From the NCBI GenBank assembly GCA_026708565.1, contig JAPOUR010000036.1, forward strand, positions 1 to 41,499: a stretch of 41,499 nucleotides of DNA, written 5' to 3'. Under the pieces are notes generated by a model. It did not search any database. It had not been told where the DNA came from and saw nothing but the letters and a program-made list of their open reading frames with translations. The translations under genes were made by a program, and so were the position numbers. Positions 13,632 to 21,907 of the stretch are shown in pieces (positions within the stretch are counted from its first letter, which is position 1; every line of letters starts with the position of its first letter). The stretch is from Candidatus Dadabacteria bacterium. Its GTDB lineage: Bacteria; Desulfobacterota_D; UBA1144; Nemesobacterales; Mycalebacteriaceae.

Positions 13632-14288
13632 TCAGTAGAAGGTGCCCGCCACCCCGATAACGGTGGCAATGAAACTTACGGGCGCAAGGTCTTCAATGGT
13701 GTCCAGACTTGTGTTGGCTTTGATGATGGTGTCCTTTGCGGCATCATAGAGGTCTTCATCATTGACCAGTTTCCCGATTGAGCCGCGCCCCTCGTCAACC
13801 TTGGTGAGTATGGAATCAAGCCGGGCGGCGGCGTCAGACGCGGAACTGAGAAACTTCCCCGCGCTTTGGATTATTTTGTCAAAATCGTGAGGAGAACTGC
13901 CTTGCAGGGCCGCGTCGGGAGGAAGCGGCTCTCCGCCGGAGGAATCAAGGGAAAGGTTGATGTAGCCGGTTCCGAGTAAACTGCCGAGCCGTATGGTCGC
14001 CTCGGTGTTTTCAGTCAGGGGAATATCCTTTTGAACCCGCGCGGAAACTTTGATTTTTGAGCCGTCCTCGGAAAATCCTATATCTGTAACATTCCCCACC
14101 CGGACGCCTTCCATTTTGACAAACGCGCCTCTCTCAAGGCCGGGGGCGGAATCAAAGTATATGCCCAGTTGCCTGTAGTCCGAAAGAAACGGCAGCGACC
14201 CGGCAAACTCAAGCACGACAAGAACGGCAACAACCCCCGCGAGGAAAAACGCCCCGATCTTCAAGTCTCTTTTTCTGTTGTCTCTCAA
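13632..14288 (-). CDS. mlaD: MCE-domain lipid-transport protein MlaD
   Basis: This 218-residue protein has one N-terminal membrane helix (about residues 11-29) and one MCE domain (about 38-115, with VKMEGVRVGNVTDIGF). In the known Mla system MlaD hexamers sit on the inner-membrane MlaE-MlaF transporter and pass phospholipids to or from the outer membrane. The last 100 residues have heptad-like helices (about 130-200) that could form a periplasmic tube or stalk. Its start overlaps the mlaF stop by four bases. No mlaB or mlaC homologue is seen nearby. Confidence 0.92.
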   Translation of the reverse strand: MRDNRKRDLKIGAFFLAGVVAVLVVLEFAGSLPFLSDYRQLGIYFDSAPGLERGAFVKMEGVRVGNVTDIGFSEDGSKIKVSARVQKDIPLTENTEATIRLGSLLGTGYINLSLDSSGGEPLPPDAALQGSSPHDFDKIIQSAGKFLSSASDAAARLDSILTKVDEGRGSIGKLVNDEDLYDAAKDTIIKANTSLDTIEDLAPVSFIATVIGVAGTFY

Positions 14289-15055
14289 CCTTCCTCCACC
14301 CGGTCTCCTCTGAGAAACCGGCTCACAAGCGGGCTGGCGCCGGATGAAACCTCTTCGGGCGTTCCCGTCTCCGCTATGCGCCCGCCGTGCATAATAGATA
14401 ACCTTCCGGCAATGGAAAAAGCAAGTTGTATGTCATGGGTAACAACCAGCTGCGTTATTCCGACCTTGTCCCTTATGGTGAGAATTATTTCCTCAACCGA
14501 CTTTTTTGTCGCCGGGTCAAGCCCCGTTGTCGGCTCGTCGTAAAGCAGAAGGTCGGGATTTGTGAGAAGCGCCCGCGCTATGGCGACCCGCCTTTTCATT
14601 CCGCCGCTGAGTTCGGAGGGAAGCGCGGAGCCCCTGCCCTGAATTCCCACAACGGAGAGAGCCGCTTCGGACACCTCCGCCAGCTCCGCCTCGTCTTTTA
14701 CAAGGCCGTGCTCCCTCGCAAACAGTTCAACATTTTCCGCAACGGTCATTGAGTTGAAAAGCGCGGATGACTGAAAAACAAGGGAAACCCTCGCCGTTGT
14801 TTCGGAGACGGAAAGGGAGTCAACCAGAACCTCCCCCTCATCGGCTTCCTCAAGCCCCGCCATGTGGCGGAGGAGAACCGTTTTGCCCGAGCCGCTTCCG
14901 CCTATAAGCACCATCACCTCTCCGGGCTCCGCCTTCAGGTTGACGCCTCTGAGAACCTCGCGGGAGCCGAACGATTTTTTCAAATTCCTCACCTCAAGCG
15001 GCACGGGGCGGCCGTTAAGGCGGGAAAGCAGAATTTCAAGGTTTGTTTTTTCCAT
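14285..15055 (-). CDS. mlaF: Phospholipid ABC transporter ATP-binding protein MlaF
   Basis: From ATG at 15055, two bases after mlaE, the protein has 256 residues. Walker A GGSGSGKT is at 52-59, followed by the Q-loop VFQSSALFNSMTV. The signature is LSGGMKRRVAIARAL, Walker B plus D-loop is LLLYDEPTTGLDP, and the H-loop is VVTHD. It should power lipid movement through MlaE at the inner membrane. The frame is open up to 15106, but the extra 17 residues overlap mlaE and do not look like the family. It overlaps mlaD by four bases. Confidence 0.94.
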   Translation of the reverse strand: MEKTNLEILLSRLNGRPVPLEVRNLKKSFGSREVLRGVNLKAEPGEVMVLIGGSGSGKTVLLRHMAGLEEADEGEVLVDSLSVSETTARVSLVFQSSALFNSMTVAENVELFAREHGLVKDEAELAEVSEAALSVVGIQGRGSALPSELSGGMKRRVAIARALLTNPDLLLYDEPTTGLDPATKKSVEEIILTIRDKVGITQLVVTHDIQLAFSIAGRLSIMHGGRIAETGTPEEVSSGASPLVSRFLRGDRVEEG

Positions 15056-15057
15056 CG

Positions 15058-15831
15058 TTAAACTATCCCGAAAACCAGCAGGATTTTTGAAATGAAGTAG
15101 TCGCACACGAGTATCATAACGATTGAGGAAACAACCGCGCGTGTTACGGAAACACCGATTTGCCTCGGCCCCCCGCTTGTCTCAAGGCCGATCTTGCAAC
15201 ATATCATCAGTGTTATGACGCCGAACACAAGCGCCTTTATAACGCCGTTCAAAACGGTTGAGAAGGTTACAAAATCTCCGAGATTGTTGAAGTATGTGGC
15301 GGACGAAAGCGATATTGCCGGATTGGTCGCCCCCACTATGGCGCCGCCCGCCCAGCCGGTAACGATTATGAAAAGCACAAGCACCGGCATGGAAATGACA
15401 AACGCTATCAGGCGCGGCATTACAAGAAACTTGACGGGGTCTATCTTCATCGTTACAAGCGCGTCAATCTCGTCGTAAACCCTCATGGACGCTATCTCCG
15501 CCGTTATGGCGGAGCCCAGCCGCCCGGCCACCAGTATTGAGCACATCACGGGGCCTATCTCCCTTGAAACCGCTATCCCGATTAGCCCGCCGAGCGTCTC
15601 CTGAATTCCGAAGTCCGCAAGCAGGGGGCCGGTCTGAAGGGCGAGAACAGCCCCGCCGGAAAACCCTATCGCGGCGGCGACAAGCAGCGTGTCCGCGCCG
15701 ATGATTGATATCTGGCGGAAAATTTTGTCGCGGTTTGCCCCCGCATCCTTGCACCAGTAAACGGACTCAATAAAGATCTTAAGCGCCCCTCCCGTGAAGG
15801 ATGCAAAACGTTCTGCGATTCCCGTTATCAT
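15058..15831 (-). CDS. mlaE: Phospholipid ABC transporter permease MlaE
   Basis: The 257-residue protein has the MlaE/YrbE fold: an amphipathic N-terminal part and about five membrane segments. The conserved cytoplasmic region is REIGPVMCSILVAGRLGSAI then TAEIASMRVYDEIDAL, and it ends in hydrophobic ILLVFGIV. It forms the inner-membrane channel of the Mla lipid transporter with MlaF and MlaD. The ATG at 15831 overlaps the TGA of the upstream repeat-protein gene as ATGA. A TTG nine bases earlier is possible but less likely. Confidence 0.94.
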   Translation of the reverse strand: MITGIAERFASFTGGALKIFIESVYWCKDAGANRDKIFRQISIIGADTLLVAAAIGFSGGAVLALQTGPLLADFGIQETLGGLIGIAVSREIGPVMCSILVAGRLGSAITAEIASMRVYDEIDALVTMKIDPVKFLVMPRLIAFVISMPVLVLFIIVTGWAGGAIVGATNPAISLSSATYFNNLGDFVTFSTVLNGVIKALVFGVITLMICCKIGLETSGGPRQIGVSVTRAVVSSIVMILVCDYFISKILLVFGIV

Positions 15832-17183
15832 GCCACGCAACTCCCGGCGTCTTCCACCGGCCCCCCGATTTTAACAGGAATAAACAGAAATCTTATTCTC
15901 CGCCCTTCGGCGTCCGAGGAATAACCGAACATTTTCGGCACGATATAAAACGACTTTTCCCCGCACGACCTTCTGTAACCGACCGCTCCGAACAGGGCGG
16001 AAACCGAAAACCGCCCGGGCGCGCGGCGCGTCTCAAACACCCTCCACAGAAAAGCGTAGTTTCTGTATATCTTCCGGCTTTCCCCCATGACGGATTCAAG
16101 CGGCGAAAACATGTGGAAGTGGGAGTTTCCGGCCCCGTCCTTCGCATAGGAAAAAACGGGCCAGAAATCAATCCGCAACGCCGGGTCCGGTGTGCCGCCA
16201 AACGGTTTTTTGCGCCGTATTTTCAGAGCGAGCAGAACCCTGTCCTGCTTGTATTCGTATGTTTCCAGTTTCGCCCTTGACGAGCCGTAAAGGGGCCAGA
16301 GAAAAAACCGCGCCTTTTTCACCCCGTATATTTCGGATGTTCCGAAAAACGGAAAAAACCTGATCCTTTTGCCCTCATCGCTCCGTTTGAAATTTACAAG
16401 GGGCCACGGCATGTGCCACGACCTCAGGTTTGTCGCTGGGTCAACGCTTTTCTGAAAAAGCGGCCACAAAAATATCCTGTGCGACTGCGTTCCGTAGTCA
16501 AACCTGTAGTAAAAGGGAAACAGTGACTTGAAAAACCTGTATGAGGGCCCGCTTCCTTTTTTCTGCTCAAAATAAAACGGCCACAGGGCAAAACGCGTGT
16601 GAGAGTCTCCCTGACGGTGAGAGCCGAAAAGCGGCCACAGGCGGAAGCCCTCCCGGTCTCCCGAATAAAAAGCGAGAATCGGCCACATTATGTTTGTGGC
16701 AGAGCCGCGTTCCGATTCGGTGCGGAAGTAAAGGGGAAGCATGTAAAACTTTGTTGAGTTTCCGAAATTCCCGTAAAAAGGGGCAACCGCAAACACCCGC
16801 CGCTTGGGAAGGAGCGAGGAGCGGTAAAATATCAGGGGATAAAGTCTGAAATCGGTCTCCGGGCCCTCCGAGCGGGCTTCGGGCCCTCTGCCGAATGAGA
16901 TTGCGTTAAACAAAAACCCCGCCCTGTAGCCCTGCCGGGCTCTTTTGTAATGGAAAAACGGATACAGAATGTCCGTCTCAACCGTCTCCGTCTTCGGGTC
17001 TTTTTTCACATAGAAAAGGGGCCTGACGCCGAACTCGTCATCACTTTTGAGAAACGGGCCGAAGGAGTATGCGCTGTCAAAACCCTCCTGACCGTGAAAG
17101 ATAAAAGCCCGCGCGGGATGCGCCCCGGCAAGGCACAAAAAAAACAACGCGCCCGCAAGCAGCGCTCTTGCCGCCGCTTTCAT
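15828..17183 (-). CDS. Secreted (W/Y/F)P-repeat protein of the Mla operon, function unknown
   Basis: I do not recognise a named family. The 451-residue protein starts with a signal peptide (basic start, LLAGALFFLCLAGA, cleavage near ARA-F at about 26). It then repeats a short hydrophobic strand with an aromatic-proline pair about a dozen times, for example LYPFFHY, MLPLYF, MWPILAF, LWPLFGS, LWPFYFE, LFPFYYR, LWPLFQK, FFPFFGT, LWPLYGS and FWPVFSY. The spacing is mostly 13-30 residues, with polar, charged linkers. Alternating aromatic strands suggest a beta-rich outer-membrane or periplasmic protein. It overlaps alr upstream and mlaE downstream by four bases each, which argues for a role with the Mla transporter or envelope building. 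Assignment to lipid transport is inference. Confidence 0.85.
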   Translation of the reverse strand: MKAAARALLAGALFFLCLAGAHPARAFIFHGQEGFDSAYSFGPFLKSDDEFGVRPLFYVKKDPKTETVETDILYPFFHYKRARQGYRAGFLFNAISFGRGPEARSEGPETDFRLYPLIFYRSSLLPKRRVFAVAPFYGNFGNSTKFYMLPLYFRTESERGSATNIMWPILAFYSGDREGFRLWPLFGSHRQGDSHTRFALWPFYFEQKKGSGPSYRFFKSLFPFYYRFDYGTQSHRIFLWPLFQKSVDPATNLRSWHMPWPLVNFKRSDEGKRIRFFPFFGTSEIYGVKKARFFLWPLYGSSRAKLETYEYKQDRVLLALKIRRKKPFGGTPDPALRIDFWPVFSYAKDGAGNSHFHMFSPLESVMGESRKIYRNYAFLWRVFETRRAPGRFSVSALFGAVGYRRSCGEKSFYIVPKMFGYSSDAEGRRIRFLFIPVKIGGPVEDAGSCVA

Positions 17184-18274
17184 AACGACTCCGGCGCCTT
17201 CTTGCGGGCCATGCCTCCGGCAACGGTCATTACCTCGTAGGGAATAGTCCGCGCCCAGCCCGCCACATCTCCGGCGCTCACAACGCCGTCTCCGAACAGA
17301 ACCGCCTCGTCTCCCGCCTTCACTTCCCCGGCGTCCGTTATGTCAATCGTTGTAAAGTCCATGCACACCTCGCCCACCACGGGGGCCGCCGCCCCGCCCA
17401 CCGAAACCTTTGCGCGACCGGAAAGCGCTCTGAAATATCCGTCCTTGTATCCCACGGGAACGGTCGCCAGAAGGGTCGGCCTTTTGGTCACAAAAGTCCC
17501 GCCGTATCCCACCGGCATTCCGGCGGGCATTTTTCTTATTCTGACAATGGAGGTTTTAACTTTCATAACCGGAGCAAGGCCGGACGGGTCAAACGATGAG
17601 CCGTAAAGCATAATTCCGGGTCTCACCATGTTGCCGAAAGACCCGGGAAACCGCTGAACCGCCGCGCTGTTTGCAATATGCCTGAGGCGGGGCGGCATTC
17701 CCGCGCGGGCGAGTTCGGAAACCGCCGATTCAAAACGCTCCACCTGTGTTAAAGTCCGTTCGGCGGGTCCCGAAGAGTCGGCAAGGTGGGTGAACACGCC
17801 TTCAAAATGCAGGTTTTTGGCGGCCCGCGCCTTTTCCATAATGGCCGCCACATTCTCCGGCTCCGCGCCGAGACGCCCCATTCCGGTGTCAACTTTCAGG
17901 TGGAAGGAGACCTGTTTTCCGGTCTCTGCGGCGGCTGAGGAAAGGCGGCTGACGCATTCTTCGGTAAAAACTGAAAAAGTGAGGCCCGCGCGCGCGGCGT
18001 CCGCCGCCATGCCTTCGGGGGCGACCCCCATAACCAGAATGGGAGCGGAAACGCCGGATTCCCTTAACTCAAAGCCCTCTTCAACGGAAGAGACGCCCAG
18101 CATTTTGACTGGCGGCATTTTCTCAAGGGCGCGGGAAATCGTGACCGCGCCGTGCCCGTAGGCGTCGGCTTTGACCACCGCTAAAATTCCAACATTGTTT
18201 CCAACTGTCCGCGCCGCCGTGTTCACATTGTTTTTCAGCGCGTTCAAGTCAATTTCAGCCCATAAGCGGTTCAT
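17180..18274 (-). CDS. alr: Alanine racemase
   Basis: Alr interconverts L- and D-alanine for peptidoglycan, using pyridoxal phosphate. The 364 residues match the family. The PLP lysine is Lys35 in VVKADAYGHG, the phosphate-binding region includes RPGIMLYG, and the second catalytic base is the tyrosine in VPVGYKDGY. The segment GEVCMDFTTID is also conserved. Its stop overlaps the start of the (W/Y/F)P-repeat gene. It is the first gene of the alr-to-mlaD run. The 207-base gap upstream holds a repeat element and a weak TATCAT box near the gene. Confidence 0.96.
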   Translation of the reverse strand: MNRLWAEIDLNALKNNVNTAARTVGNNVGILAVVKADAYGHGAVTISRALEKMPPVKMLGVSSVEEGFELRESGVSAPILVMGVAPEGMAADAARAGLTFSVFTEECVSRLSSAAAETGKQVSFHLKVDTGMGRLGAEPENVAAIMEKARAAKNLHFEGVFTHLADSSGPAERTLTQVERFESAVSELARAGMPPRLRHIANSAAVQRFPGSFGNMVRPGIMLYGSSFDPSGLAPVMKVKTSIVRIRKMPAGMPVGYGGTFVTKRPTLLATVPVGYKDGYFRALSGRAKVSVGGAAAPVVGEVCMDFTTIDITDAGEVKAGDEAVLFGDGVVSAGDVAGWARTIPYEVMTVAGGMARKKAPESL

Positions 18275-18361
18275 GAAGCAAAGGTCGCAGAGAGGGGAAA
18301 GCCCTGAAGTTATGATAAGTCAACGGGTCTGGGAAAGCAACAGGGATGAGTGGGGGATTTC

Positions 18362-18404
18362 TGTCATTCCGTGCTACGACACGGAATCCAGAGGGGGTGG
18401 GGAG
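18362..18404 (-). repeat. Palindromic repeat, copy 1 (inverted orientation)
   Basis: The core ATTCCGTG-CTACGA-CACGGAAT (18366-18387) is a perfect 8-base stem with a 6-base loop. The flank, read on the minus strand, is CCCCACCCCCTCTGG before the core and GACAG after it, as in the other copies. The element resembles intergenic hairpin repeats such as dRS3-like or Wolbachia/Rickettsia types, but I cannot assign it to a named family. Confidence 0.85.
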
Positions 18405-18481
18405 GTGTTTCGTTGCAGAAACGGGGGGCTGTCTTTAGAATGCTTGCTGTTCAGTGAGACAATGACGGGAGGAGTTGAGAA

Positions 18482-18988
18482 ATGGAAAGAGTAAATGAAG
18501 ATGACATAACGGTCCTGATGGAGGCAACAAGCGAAGGCGACATCGAAACAATACGCGAATTGCTGAAAGAGGGAGCGGATGTAAACGCAAAGGATAATTA
18601 CGGCAGTACAGCCCTGATGGAGGCGGTGCGCCACGGAGATACCGAAGCAATAAGGGAATTACTGAAAGCGGGAGCGGATGTAAATGCAAGGGATAATCAC
18701 GGCGGGACGGCTCTGATGGACGCGGCGGGTTTAGGAGACACTGAGGCAATAGGGGATTTGCTAGAAGCGGGGGCGGATGTAAACGCAATGAATAATGACG
18801 GTGTGACAGCCCTGATGGAGGCAACGGGTTGGGAGCAGACCGAAGCAATAAGGGAATTGCTGAATGCAAGCGCGGATGTAAATGCAAAAAATAACAAAGG
18901 CCAGATGGCGTATGACCTTTGGAAAAGAAACCGTAAAGATGATCCGCAAGTTGCTGAAAGCGGGAGTAGATATAGGAGCATTGGATAA
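18482..18988 (+). CDS. Ankyrin-repeat protein, upstream ORF
   Basis: A 168-residue cytosolic-type protein (no signal peptide) made of four ankyrin repeats of about 33 residues, each close to TALMEA-x(5)-TEAIRELLKAGADVNA-x-DN. It ends in a cap KGQMAYDLWKRN...DDPQVAE like the cap at the end of the next ORF (TAFDLWYES...KIAELLKP). After VAE the frame reads SGSRYRSIG and stops, where the alternate frame reads LLKAG. So the natural end looks replaced. A good Shine-Dalgarno GGGAGGAG precedes the ATG. GC is lower than in the core genes. Ankyrin repeats bind proteins; such genes are common in host-associated bacteria, and the partner is unknown. Confidence 0.8.
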   Translation: MERVNEDDITVLMEATSEGDIETIRELLKEGADVNAKDNYGSTALMEAVRHGDTEAIRELLKAGADVNARDNHGGTALMDAAGLGDTEAIGDLLEAGADVNAMNNDGVTALMEATGWEQTEAIRELLNASADVNAKNNKGQMAYDLWKRNRKDDPQVAESGSRYRSIG

Positions 18989-20102
18989 TAAAGGCAGGAC
19001 ACCTCTGATGGTGGCAGCGGGCAACGGACATACCGAAGTAATAAGGGAACTGTTGAAAGTGGGAGCAGATATAGAGGCATGGGATAATGAAGGCTGGACA
19101 CCCTTGATGTTGGCAGCGAATAGAGGACAAACGGAAGCAATACAAGTGTTACTGAAAGCAGGTGCAGATATAGAAGCAAGGGATGAATATAAACTGCGGT
19201 CTCTTACGCCTCTGATGGCGGCGGCAGGTAAGGGGCATACCGAAGCAATAAGGTTGCTGCTGAAAGCGGGAGCGGATGTAAACGCAAGTAACTATGTCAG
19301 CAAGACGGCTTTAATATGTGCAACGGAAAACGGAAATACTGAAGCAATAAGAGAATTGCTAAAAGCGGGAGCGGACGTAAGTGACGATAGGGCTCTGATA
19401 AGGGCGGCAGAAAACGGAAATACCGAAGCAATAAGAGAATTGCTAAAAGCGGGAGCGGACGTAAACGCAAGGGAGAATGATGGCGATACATCTCTGATGA
19501 GGGCGGCGGAAAATGGAAATACCGAAGCAATAAGAGTGTTGCTAAAAGCGGGGGCGGATATAGAGGCAAGGGGTGATGAAGGCCGTTTTATAAGCGAAGG
19601 ATGGGGTAGTCCGGGCTGGACACCTCTGATGCATGCAGCGGGCAACGGACGTATCAAAGCAATAAGGGAATTGCTGAATGCAGGAGCGAACATAGAGGCA
19701 AGAGGCAGTAATGGAGACGGAACGGCTCTTATAGTAGCAGCGGGCAACGGATATACCGAAGCAATAAGAGTGTTGCTGAAAGCGGGAGCGGATGTCGACG
19801 CAAGGCATAATGGCGGCAAGACGGCTCTGATGAAGGCAGCGATGGAAGGGCAGACTGAAGTAATAAGGGAGTTGTTGAAAACGGGGGTGGGTACAGAGAC
19901 AAGGGATTCCGTATATGGCCGGACGGCCCTAATGTGGGCAACGGTCAACGGGCAAACCAAAGCAACAAAGGAATTGCTAAGAGCGGGGGCTAATACAGAA
20001 GCAAAAGATAATTGGAACCGGACAGCTTTTGACTTGTGGTACGAAAGCGGAGCAAAAAACCATCCTGATTTTCACAAAATCGCGGAGTTGCTGAAACCTT
20101 AA
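18882..20102 (+). CDS. Ankyrin-repeat protein, downstream ORF (start uncertain, possibly 5'-truncated)
   Basis: The frame carries about ten ankyrin repeats with consensus TPLM-x-AAGNG-x-TEAIRELLKAGADVNA and a C-terminal cap TAFDLW...HKIAELLKP. It overlaps the upstream ORF by 107 bases in another frame. The first clear repeat starts at ETVKMIRKLLKAGVDIGALD; residues before it are the out-of-frame reading of the previous cap and are probably not natural. ATG at 18882 has no Shine-Dalgarno; later in-frame ATGs exist near 18910 and 18937. It may be a fused 5'-truncated gene or the second half of a frameshifted 15-repeat protein. Repeats at 19320-19560 are nearly identical at DNA level. Confidence 0.72.
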   Translation: MQKITKARWRMTFGKETVKMIRKLLKAGVDIGALDNKGRTPLMVAAGNGHTEVIRELLKVGADIEAWDNEGWTPLMLAANRGQTEAIQVLLKAGADIEARDEYKLRSLTPLMAAAGKGHTEAIRLLLKAGADVNASNYVSKTALICATENGNTEAIRELLKAGADVSDDRALIRAAENGNTEAIRELLKAGADVNARENDGDTSLMRAAENGNTEAIRVLLKAGADIEARGDEGRFISEGWGSPGWTPLMHAAGNGRIKAIRELLNAGANIEARGSNGDGTALIVAAGNGYTEAIRVLLKAGADVDARHNGGKTALMKAAMEGQTEVIRELLKTGVGTETRDSVYGRTALMWATVNGQTKATKELLRAGANTEAKDNWNRTAFDLWYESGAKNHPDFHKIAELLKP

Positions 20103-20873: not shown

Positions 20874-21161
20874 TCATTCAAACCTCATCGGCTCAGCAAG
20901 TTTTTTGTTCTTTGCGATCTCCTGTTTCAATGCGGTGAATTCATCATCAGTTAAGCCGACCTCTCCCCATATCATTGCAAGAGCGTCTCCCATAAGAAGA
21001 CCGTCCTCCGGCTTTGCCACCTTCGGAGAACCATCAGGCAACTTACAAGATTTGCGTTTCGTAGTCAGAATAATGGAATGATACCCCCTACAACCGGACT
21101 GCAAACCCCGCCCCACCCCTCTGGATTCCGTGTCGTAGCACGGAATGACGGGCAAAGACAT
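20874..21161 (-). CDS. Hypothetical small protein, N-terminus partly repeat-derived
   Basis: The 95-codon frame is unlike any family I know. Its first 17 or so residues (LPVIPCYDTESRG) are a translation of repeat copy 3, so the original start is probably later: TTG at 21041 (before PDGSPKVAKPEDG) or ATG at 20993 (MGDALAMIWGEVG). The C-terminal part GLTDDEFTALKQEIAKNKK looks like a real soluble helical segment. It may be a truncated gene that gained a new 5' end from the repeat. Confidence 0.4.
   Translation of the reverse strand: MSLPVIPCYDTESRGVGRGLQSGCRGYHSIILTTKRKSCKLPDGSPKVAKPEDGLLMGDALAMIWGEVGLTDDEFTALKQEIAKNKKLAEPMRFE
21111..21155 (+). repeat. Palindromic repeat, copy 3
   Basis: CCCCACCCCT then CTGGATTCCGTG-TCGTAG-CACGGAATGACGGGC. 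The stem is perfect, as in copy 1, and the flank is shared. It lies in the 5' end of the hypothetical ORF at 20874-21161. Confidence 0.85.
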
Positions 21162-21198: not shown

Positions 21199-21471
21199 TC
21201 ACCTATACACTTCTTTTCTGTGTCCAATCTTGATTATTCTGATTGTGTCTTCCCTGTCATCTATTGAATAGATAATCCTGTAATCGCCCTGTCTTATTCT
21301 GTAATTTTTCACACCCTTTCCGCCGCCCGCCATCTTTTCCACTCCCGCCATTCTTGGATTGCCGGAAAGAAGCGCAATTTTGCTTATGATTTGCTGTCTG
21401 GTTCTCTTGTCGCCGACTGAAAGCAACTCCTTTTCTGCAGACGGCTTGAAGGAGAGTTTATATCTTCCCAC
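21199..21471 (-). CDS. RelE/ParE-family toxin
   Basis: A 90-residue basic protein with the RelE fold pattern: start YKLSFKPSAEKELLSV, helix RTRQQIISKIALL, then the C-terminal strands YRIRQGDYRIIYSID and IRIIKIGHRKEVYR. RelE toxins cut mRNA on the ribosome; ParE members poison gyrase. The GDYRIIY and IGHRKEVY motifs favour the RelE type. The gene overlaps its antitoxin by 14 bases, and all key segments are present, so the pair looks functional. Confidence 0.88.
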   Translation of the reverse strand: MGRYKLSFKPSAEKELLSVGDKRTRQQIISKIALLSGNPRMAGVEKMAGGGKGVKNYRIRQGDYRIIYSIDDREDTIRIIKIGHRKEVYR

Positions 21472-21700
21472 TTTTCTTCAGTCTCGCCACAACTTCATCA
21501 AACGGAATATCCGGCTCGCTTTTGCGTTTTTCAATGTCCGCATAGTCTTCCGCATCTTCCGCAAGAGAAAGTTTAAGCGCCTGATTTACGAGGGATGAAA
21601 CGGAAGTGTCAGTCCCGGTCGCCTTCTTGCGAACCGCGCGGGCGACCTTCTCCTCAAGATAAACTGTCGTCTTGTGTGTTTCAGTTGCCTTCCGCATCAT
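21458..21700 (-). CDS. Ribbon-helix-helix antitoxin partner of RelE
   Basis: From ATG at 21700 the protein has 80 residues. TKTTVYLEEKVARAVRKKA-type strand and helices (here HKTTVYLEEKVARAVRKKA) followed by TDTSVSSLVNQALKLSL fit a RHH DNA-binding domain. The C-terminal part PDIPFDEVVARLKKSGKI would bind the toxin. The open frame continues to 21841, but that part (LSFRAATRNPEGVGF) is a reading of repeat copy 4 and is not likely translated. Such antitoxins repress their own operon. Confidence 0.8.
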   Translation of the reverse strand: MMRKATETHKTTVYLEEKVARAVRKKATGTDTSVSSLVNQALKLSLAEDAEDYADIEKRKSEPDIPFDEVVARLKKSGKI

Positions 21701-21736
21701 TTCAGCAATGTATCTCCGTGCCTGTGTAGTGTCAAA

Positions 21737-21779
21737 CCCCACCCCCTCTGGATTCCTTGTCGCAGCACGGAATGACAGG
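21737..21779 (+). repeat. Palindromic repeat, copy 4
   Basis: CCCCACCCCCTCTG then GATTCCTTG-TCGCAG-CACGGAATGACAGG. One mismatch lies in the left arm. It sits upstream of the relB-relE pair. Confidence 0.82.
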
Positions 21780-21907
21780 TAGGCGGCTCTGCCGCCCCCG
21801 AACACGGACGGATACAGACAAACACGGACTGACCGCCGCAAATGGGCGGCGAAACCGCCTCCGGTTTCCGTGATAAACTAACCCCTCAAGAGGCGCAACC
21901 ACCCACA

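Follow-up and report, generated by a model that had tools for sequence, protein, structure and literature searches.

In Veillonella parvula, the Mla lipid transporter consists of MlaEFD, with an elongated MlaD that bears a C-terminal outer-membrane β-barrel of ~10 strands (Grasekamp et al. 2023, PMC10665443). Such a barrel is predicted in only ~10% of MlaD proteins and in none from the PVC and FCB groups, and unidentified helper proteins have been raised (PMC10665443). How MlaEFD without MlaA, MlaC or an MlaD barrel reaches the outer membrane is an open question in the literature (PMC10665443). A further arrangement is PqiABC, which combines the PqiB needle with the outer-membrane lipoprotein PqiC (PMC10897342).

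With this in mind, we analysed a stretch of 41,499 nucleotides, referred to as the window, in which MlaE, MlaF and MlaD are encoded together (PF02405, PF00005 and PF02470), as in Mla/MCE lipid transporters, and share an operon with an exported protein that we call X. The features of the operon are, in the order of reading:

17180..18274, minus strand: alr, alanine racemase, upstream of X with a 4-base overlap; ORF named by sequence and orthologue synteny.
15828..17183, minus strand: gene X, exported aromatic-proline repeat protein; ORF of 451 aa, ATG start at 17183.
17106..17183, minus strand: Sec signal peptide of X, residues 1-26, cleavage after ARA; from sequence, the hydrophobic N-terminus being kept in homologues.
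15864..17069, minus strand: repeat region of X, units of 17-23 aa with the core L-(W/F)-P-(L/F/I)-(F/Y) and charged flanks; from motif counts and alignment.
15058..15831, minus strand: mlaE, lipid ABC transporter permease, 4-base overlap with X; PF02405, E=3.7e-67.
14285..15055, minus strand: mlaF, ATPase, proposed ATG start at 15055; PF00005, E=2.6e-32 on a longer ORF.
13632..14288, minus strand: mlaD, MCE protein of 218 aa without a β-barrel domain; PF02470, E=1.1e-18, residues 40-113.
13635..13691, minus strand: hydrophobic C-terminal tail of MlaD (DLAPVSFIATVIGVAGTFY), conserved in MlaD encoded beside X.

Both junctions of X are ATGA overlaps, with alr at ...GTTATGAAAGC and with mlaE at ...GGCATGATAAC, where mlaE starts at the ATG at 15831 (an upstream alternative is the TTG at 15840). 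Downstream of X the order is mlaE, mlaF, mlaD and then smpB. As in V. parvula, whose MlaD is thought to bridge the envelope, the system comprises MlaEFD only, with neither MlaA nor MlaC; it differs in its short or barrel-less MlaD, 218 aa long in the window and in relatives mostly 324-335 aa, and in the separate exported repeat protein encoded alongside. It shares homologues of MlaE, MlaF and MlaD with the E. coli system (MlaFEDB, MlaC, MlaA-OmpC), but the six-component set is not present in the source genome: MlaA and MlaC (PF04333, PF05494) are absent from this genome of 96% completeness, in which control profiles were found, and X matches neither family. The layout of PqiABC, an MCE needle with a separate outer-membrane partner, is analogous (PMC10897342); X differs in being repetitive, in having no Pfam match and in that only one examined family member (L045) carries a lipobox. 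Altogether, we propose that X belongs, as a dedicated exported component, to an MlaEFD (MCE-type) lipid transporter without MlaA, MlaC or an MlaD β-barrel, and probably acts at the outer-membrane end of this transporter, a reading to which we assign a probability of roughly 0.6.

By inspection, the N-terminus of X, with MKAAARALLAGALFFLCLAGAHPARA before the cleavage site and FIFHG after it, reads as a standard Sec signal peptide. Nearly all complete homologues examined begin with a comparable hydrophobic segment; the exceptions are L060, whose start codon is probably misassigned, and L052, for which a weaker segment was picked in the scan. None of these complete homologues has a further transmembrane helix, the 19-residue hydropathy past residue 60 peaking at 1.13. 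For X and the members of two alignments, searches of Pfam, NCBIfam, PHROGs and PDB sequences gave nothing meaningful, and X thus matched no profile of MlaA, MlaC or any other curated family in these libraries.

The protein is built from repeats. A strict motif, hydrophobic-hydrophobic-Pro-hydrophobic-hydrophobic, occurs 12 times (FGPFL, LYPFF, LYPLI, MLPLY, MWPIL, LWPLF, LWPFY, LFPFY, LWPLF, FFPFF, LWPLY and FWPVF), whereas 20,000 shuffled sequences average 1.03 and never exceed 7. The spacing is regular: with looser units included, ~24 units per family member are found at median spacings of 17-23 residues in an alignment of 49 sequences, and ~22 can be counted by eye in the window protein. 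The averaged unit reads F-x-L-(W/F)-P-(L/F/I)-(F/Y)-(G/S)-Y, with charged residues ~6 positions to either side. The first-pass annotation of this DNA had described the gene by its coordinates and length, by four-base overlaps with both neighbours, by a signal peptide and by about a dozen aromatic-proline repeats, and in all these respects it was correct, the gene lying on the minus strand.

Judged from sequence, X is best viewed as a predicted all-β repeat protein with strand centres that are hydrophobic on both faces, a property that would suit a barrel or groove that is hydrophobic inside, or else a repeat of the solenoid kind. Set against the hallmarks of outer-membrane β-barrels, X has the Sec signal peptide and likely strands, yet these are centred on proline in nearly every case and hydrophobic on both faces, unlike those of a typical water-filled porin. 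In an alternative, X is not inserted into the outer membrane but forms a periplasmic β-repeat scaffold or sleeve, a solenoid-like structure in which the proline splits each unit into a pair of short strands; it would brace or surround the MlaD needle, or else form a hydrophobic lipid slide. The mid-unit position of the proline in most units and the hydrophobicity of both strand faces agree with it. So do single-unit insertions such as that in L052, which suit a modular repeat and because of which a strict antiparallel barrel is somewhat disfavoured. In an AlphaFold2 model of a 179-residue fragment, each unit likewise comes out as a pair of short strands with the break at the proline, but this model, built from one sequence, is unreliable (pLDDT 51) and gave no significant Foldseek match in the PDB (best E 0.66). 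Moreover, a centre of ~9 hydrophobic residues between charged flanks, as predicted for the strands, also fits a membrane strand. We regard the scaffold as possible but rather doubtful. That X acts at the outer-membrane end of the transporter we hold to be somewhat better than an even bet. The model of whole X from the window and L002 sequences is unreliable as well (pLDDT 30). A likeness of the fragment to a phage tail fibre (Foldseek against viral models, best E 4.8e-3) was dismissed as meaningless at this model quality. Covariation between neighbouring units, which would distinguish antiparallel from parallel packing, gave no signal in 49 sequences, and unit-to-unit profile similarity revealed no clear two-unit period.

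The connection of X to the transporter is seen most clearly in its gene neighbourhoods. Besides the window, 36 loci from the phylum of the source genome were examined, and in every one the mla gene closest to X is mlaE; where the contig reaches, alr precedes and mlaF and mlaD follow. Outside the phylum, an mla gene is immediately adjacent to X in 17 of the 20 loci examined (L002, L099, L101-L112, L114, L115 and L162); of the others, L113 is cut by the contig end, L100 has X 4.8 kb from mlaD, and L156 has no mla genes within ~6 kb. Three gene orders occur, X-E-F-D (e.g. L107, L114), F-X-E-D (L101, L102, L104) and E-F-D-X (L103, L105, L106, L109, L110), and the linkage to mla therefore survives rearrangement. 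Furthermore, all 56 genomes with a strong X homologue encode MlaE, compared with 263 of 331 others (P=1.3e-5, not corrected for relatedness). Two additional genes separate mlaE from mlaF in one phylum (L109:3329-4789, L103:10631-12141), one matching an IstB-like ATPase (E=2.6e-20) and the other without a Pfam match.

X could also be a mere passenger of the operon: its gene would be co-transcribed with mlaEFD (and alr) for the sake of common regulation, while the exported protein would serve another envelope process. Indeed, alr adjoins in many loci, and the homologue without mla neighbours (L156:7044-8879), a distant one of 612 codons in a genome with four MlaE, would fit such a role; it may reflect functional divergence within the family. 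However, X shifts its position around mlaE, mlaF and mlaD yet stays in the cluster, in some out-of-phylum loci even without alr nearby. It also tracks one MlaE clade and appears to have been lost with that clade, as described below, and a passenger role is accordingly improbable.

Genomes of the source phylum often carry two or three MlaE, and X tracks a particular MlaE clade, which separates from the paralogous MlaE that these genomes also encode. In a tree built from 60 MlaE sequences, the labels X-linked and non-X require 3 changes, compared with a mean of 12 for shuffled labels and none of 500 shuffles as low, and the phylum's other MlaE type forms a separate clade (support 100); the tree was built quickly and has several long branches, which makes its deep placements uncertain. 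L139, a non-X row, is placed within the X-linked part; it comes from genome G365, where X is unlinked, and its placement fits G365 keeping the MlaE that matches X elsewhere in the genome. X is missing from 14 genomes of a single genus, each with just one MlaE, which in the two inspected (G006 and G014) is of the other type. These two of 14 genomes suggest that X and its transporter were lost jointly. We consider it very probable that X is a functional component of the MlaEFD transporter. The phylum's other MlaE type is preceded by a small gene for a lipoprotein-like product of ~180-196 aa with Cys behind its signal segment (L140-L148, e.g. L141:5763-7090); the two tested had no Pfam match, and the product is possibly another undescribed MCE partner.

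A possible point of contact is offered by MlaD. In the phylum, X-linked MlaD is mostly 324-335 aa long, the 218 aa of the window being shared by the sister genome G001. The common C-terminus is of the type KGEGTLGKLVND..LY...P-h-S..G...G..F and includes a hydrophobic tail of ~16-19 residues, which, judged from length and sequence, leaves no room for a ten-strand barrel of the V. parvula type. The one non-X MlaD compared, L153, ends in HPKKYIKFSIF, unlike the X-linked tail, and at n=1 is only a lead. The conserved tail is a possible docking element in X-linked systems. We envisage that MlaF would hydrolyse ATP and MlaE move lipid at the inner membrane, while an MlaD hexamer would extend a helical needle across the periplasm. 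Its six conserved hydrophobic C-terminal tails would then meet X at or in the outer membrane, where X, as a predicted all-β repeat protein with hydrophobic strand centres, might transfer lipid between this membrane and the tip of the needle; the contact with MlaD, the outer-membrane placement, the handling of lipid and any direction of transport we infer from the features above. In its most specific form, which we put forward tentatively, X would be the first member of a so far undescribed but widespread family whose proteins make up the outer-membrane terminus of barrel-less MlaEFD, its β-repeat with a hydrophobic interior serving as a lipid conduit docked by the MlaD tails.

The X family is widespread in many unrelated bacteria of several phyla. 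X-like genes are present in 39 of 58 genomes of the source phylum (all those in the collection), and outside it we found 17 strong cases in ~11 families among ~329 genomes. Two small phyla, each sampled in full within the collection, have X in every genome (3 of 3 and 4 of 4), and a homologue lies on a Verrucomicrobia contig (L002); our scans of viral contigs returned no relatives. The first-pass annotation had suggested that X may be a lineage-specific outer-membrane or periplasmic partner of MlaEFD in place of MlaA and MlaC. The partner reading gains support from the linkage of X to mla genes across distant bacteria and different gene orders, with distant L156 as the sole scattered homologue, but "lineage-specific" is wrong. 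As to the replacement, the absence of MlaA and MlaC extends to the whole source genome, whereas X and MlaA are not significantly exclusive: MlaA is found in 3 of 56 genomes with X and 31 of 331 without (387-genome sample, P = 0.45), a test blurred by the fact that several MCE systems can share one genome. A replacement of MlaA by X is plausible.

Altogether, this is a known transporter with an undescribed component, and the functional association between the two is strong. We found no earlier description of such an X-like partner in the open-access papers searched. Conserved, separately encoded, exported and present in the same operon in several phyla, X is a concrete candidate for the missing outer part of barrel-less MlaEFD and, if this holds true, would represent a third solution for the outer-membrane terminus beside MlaA-MlaC and the MlaD β-barrel. 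Its sequence profile offers a way to recognise such transporters, as none of the family libraries searched has a model for X.

The window holds further features near the operon. Just upstream of alr, on the opposite strand, two overlapping ankyrin-repeat ORFs in different frames (18482-20102) are perhaps one frameshifted gene. They are flanked by a short repeated DNA element (18171-18494 and 20874-21161) whose translation reads VIPCYDTESRG, which suggests a dispersed intergenic repeat. Two small adjacent ORFs at 21199-21841 resemble a toxin-antitoxin pair, the upstream one with a weak, below-cut-off match to ribbon-helix-helix proteins.
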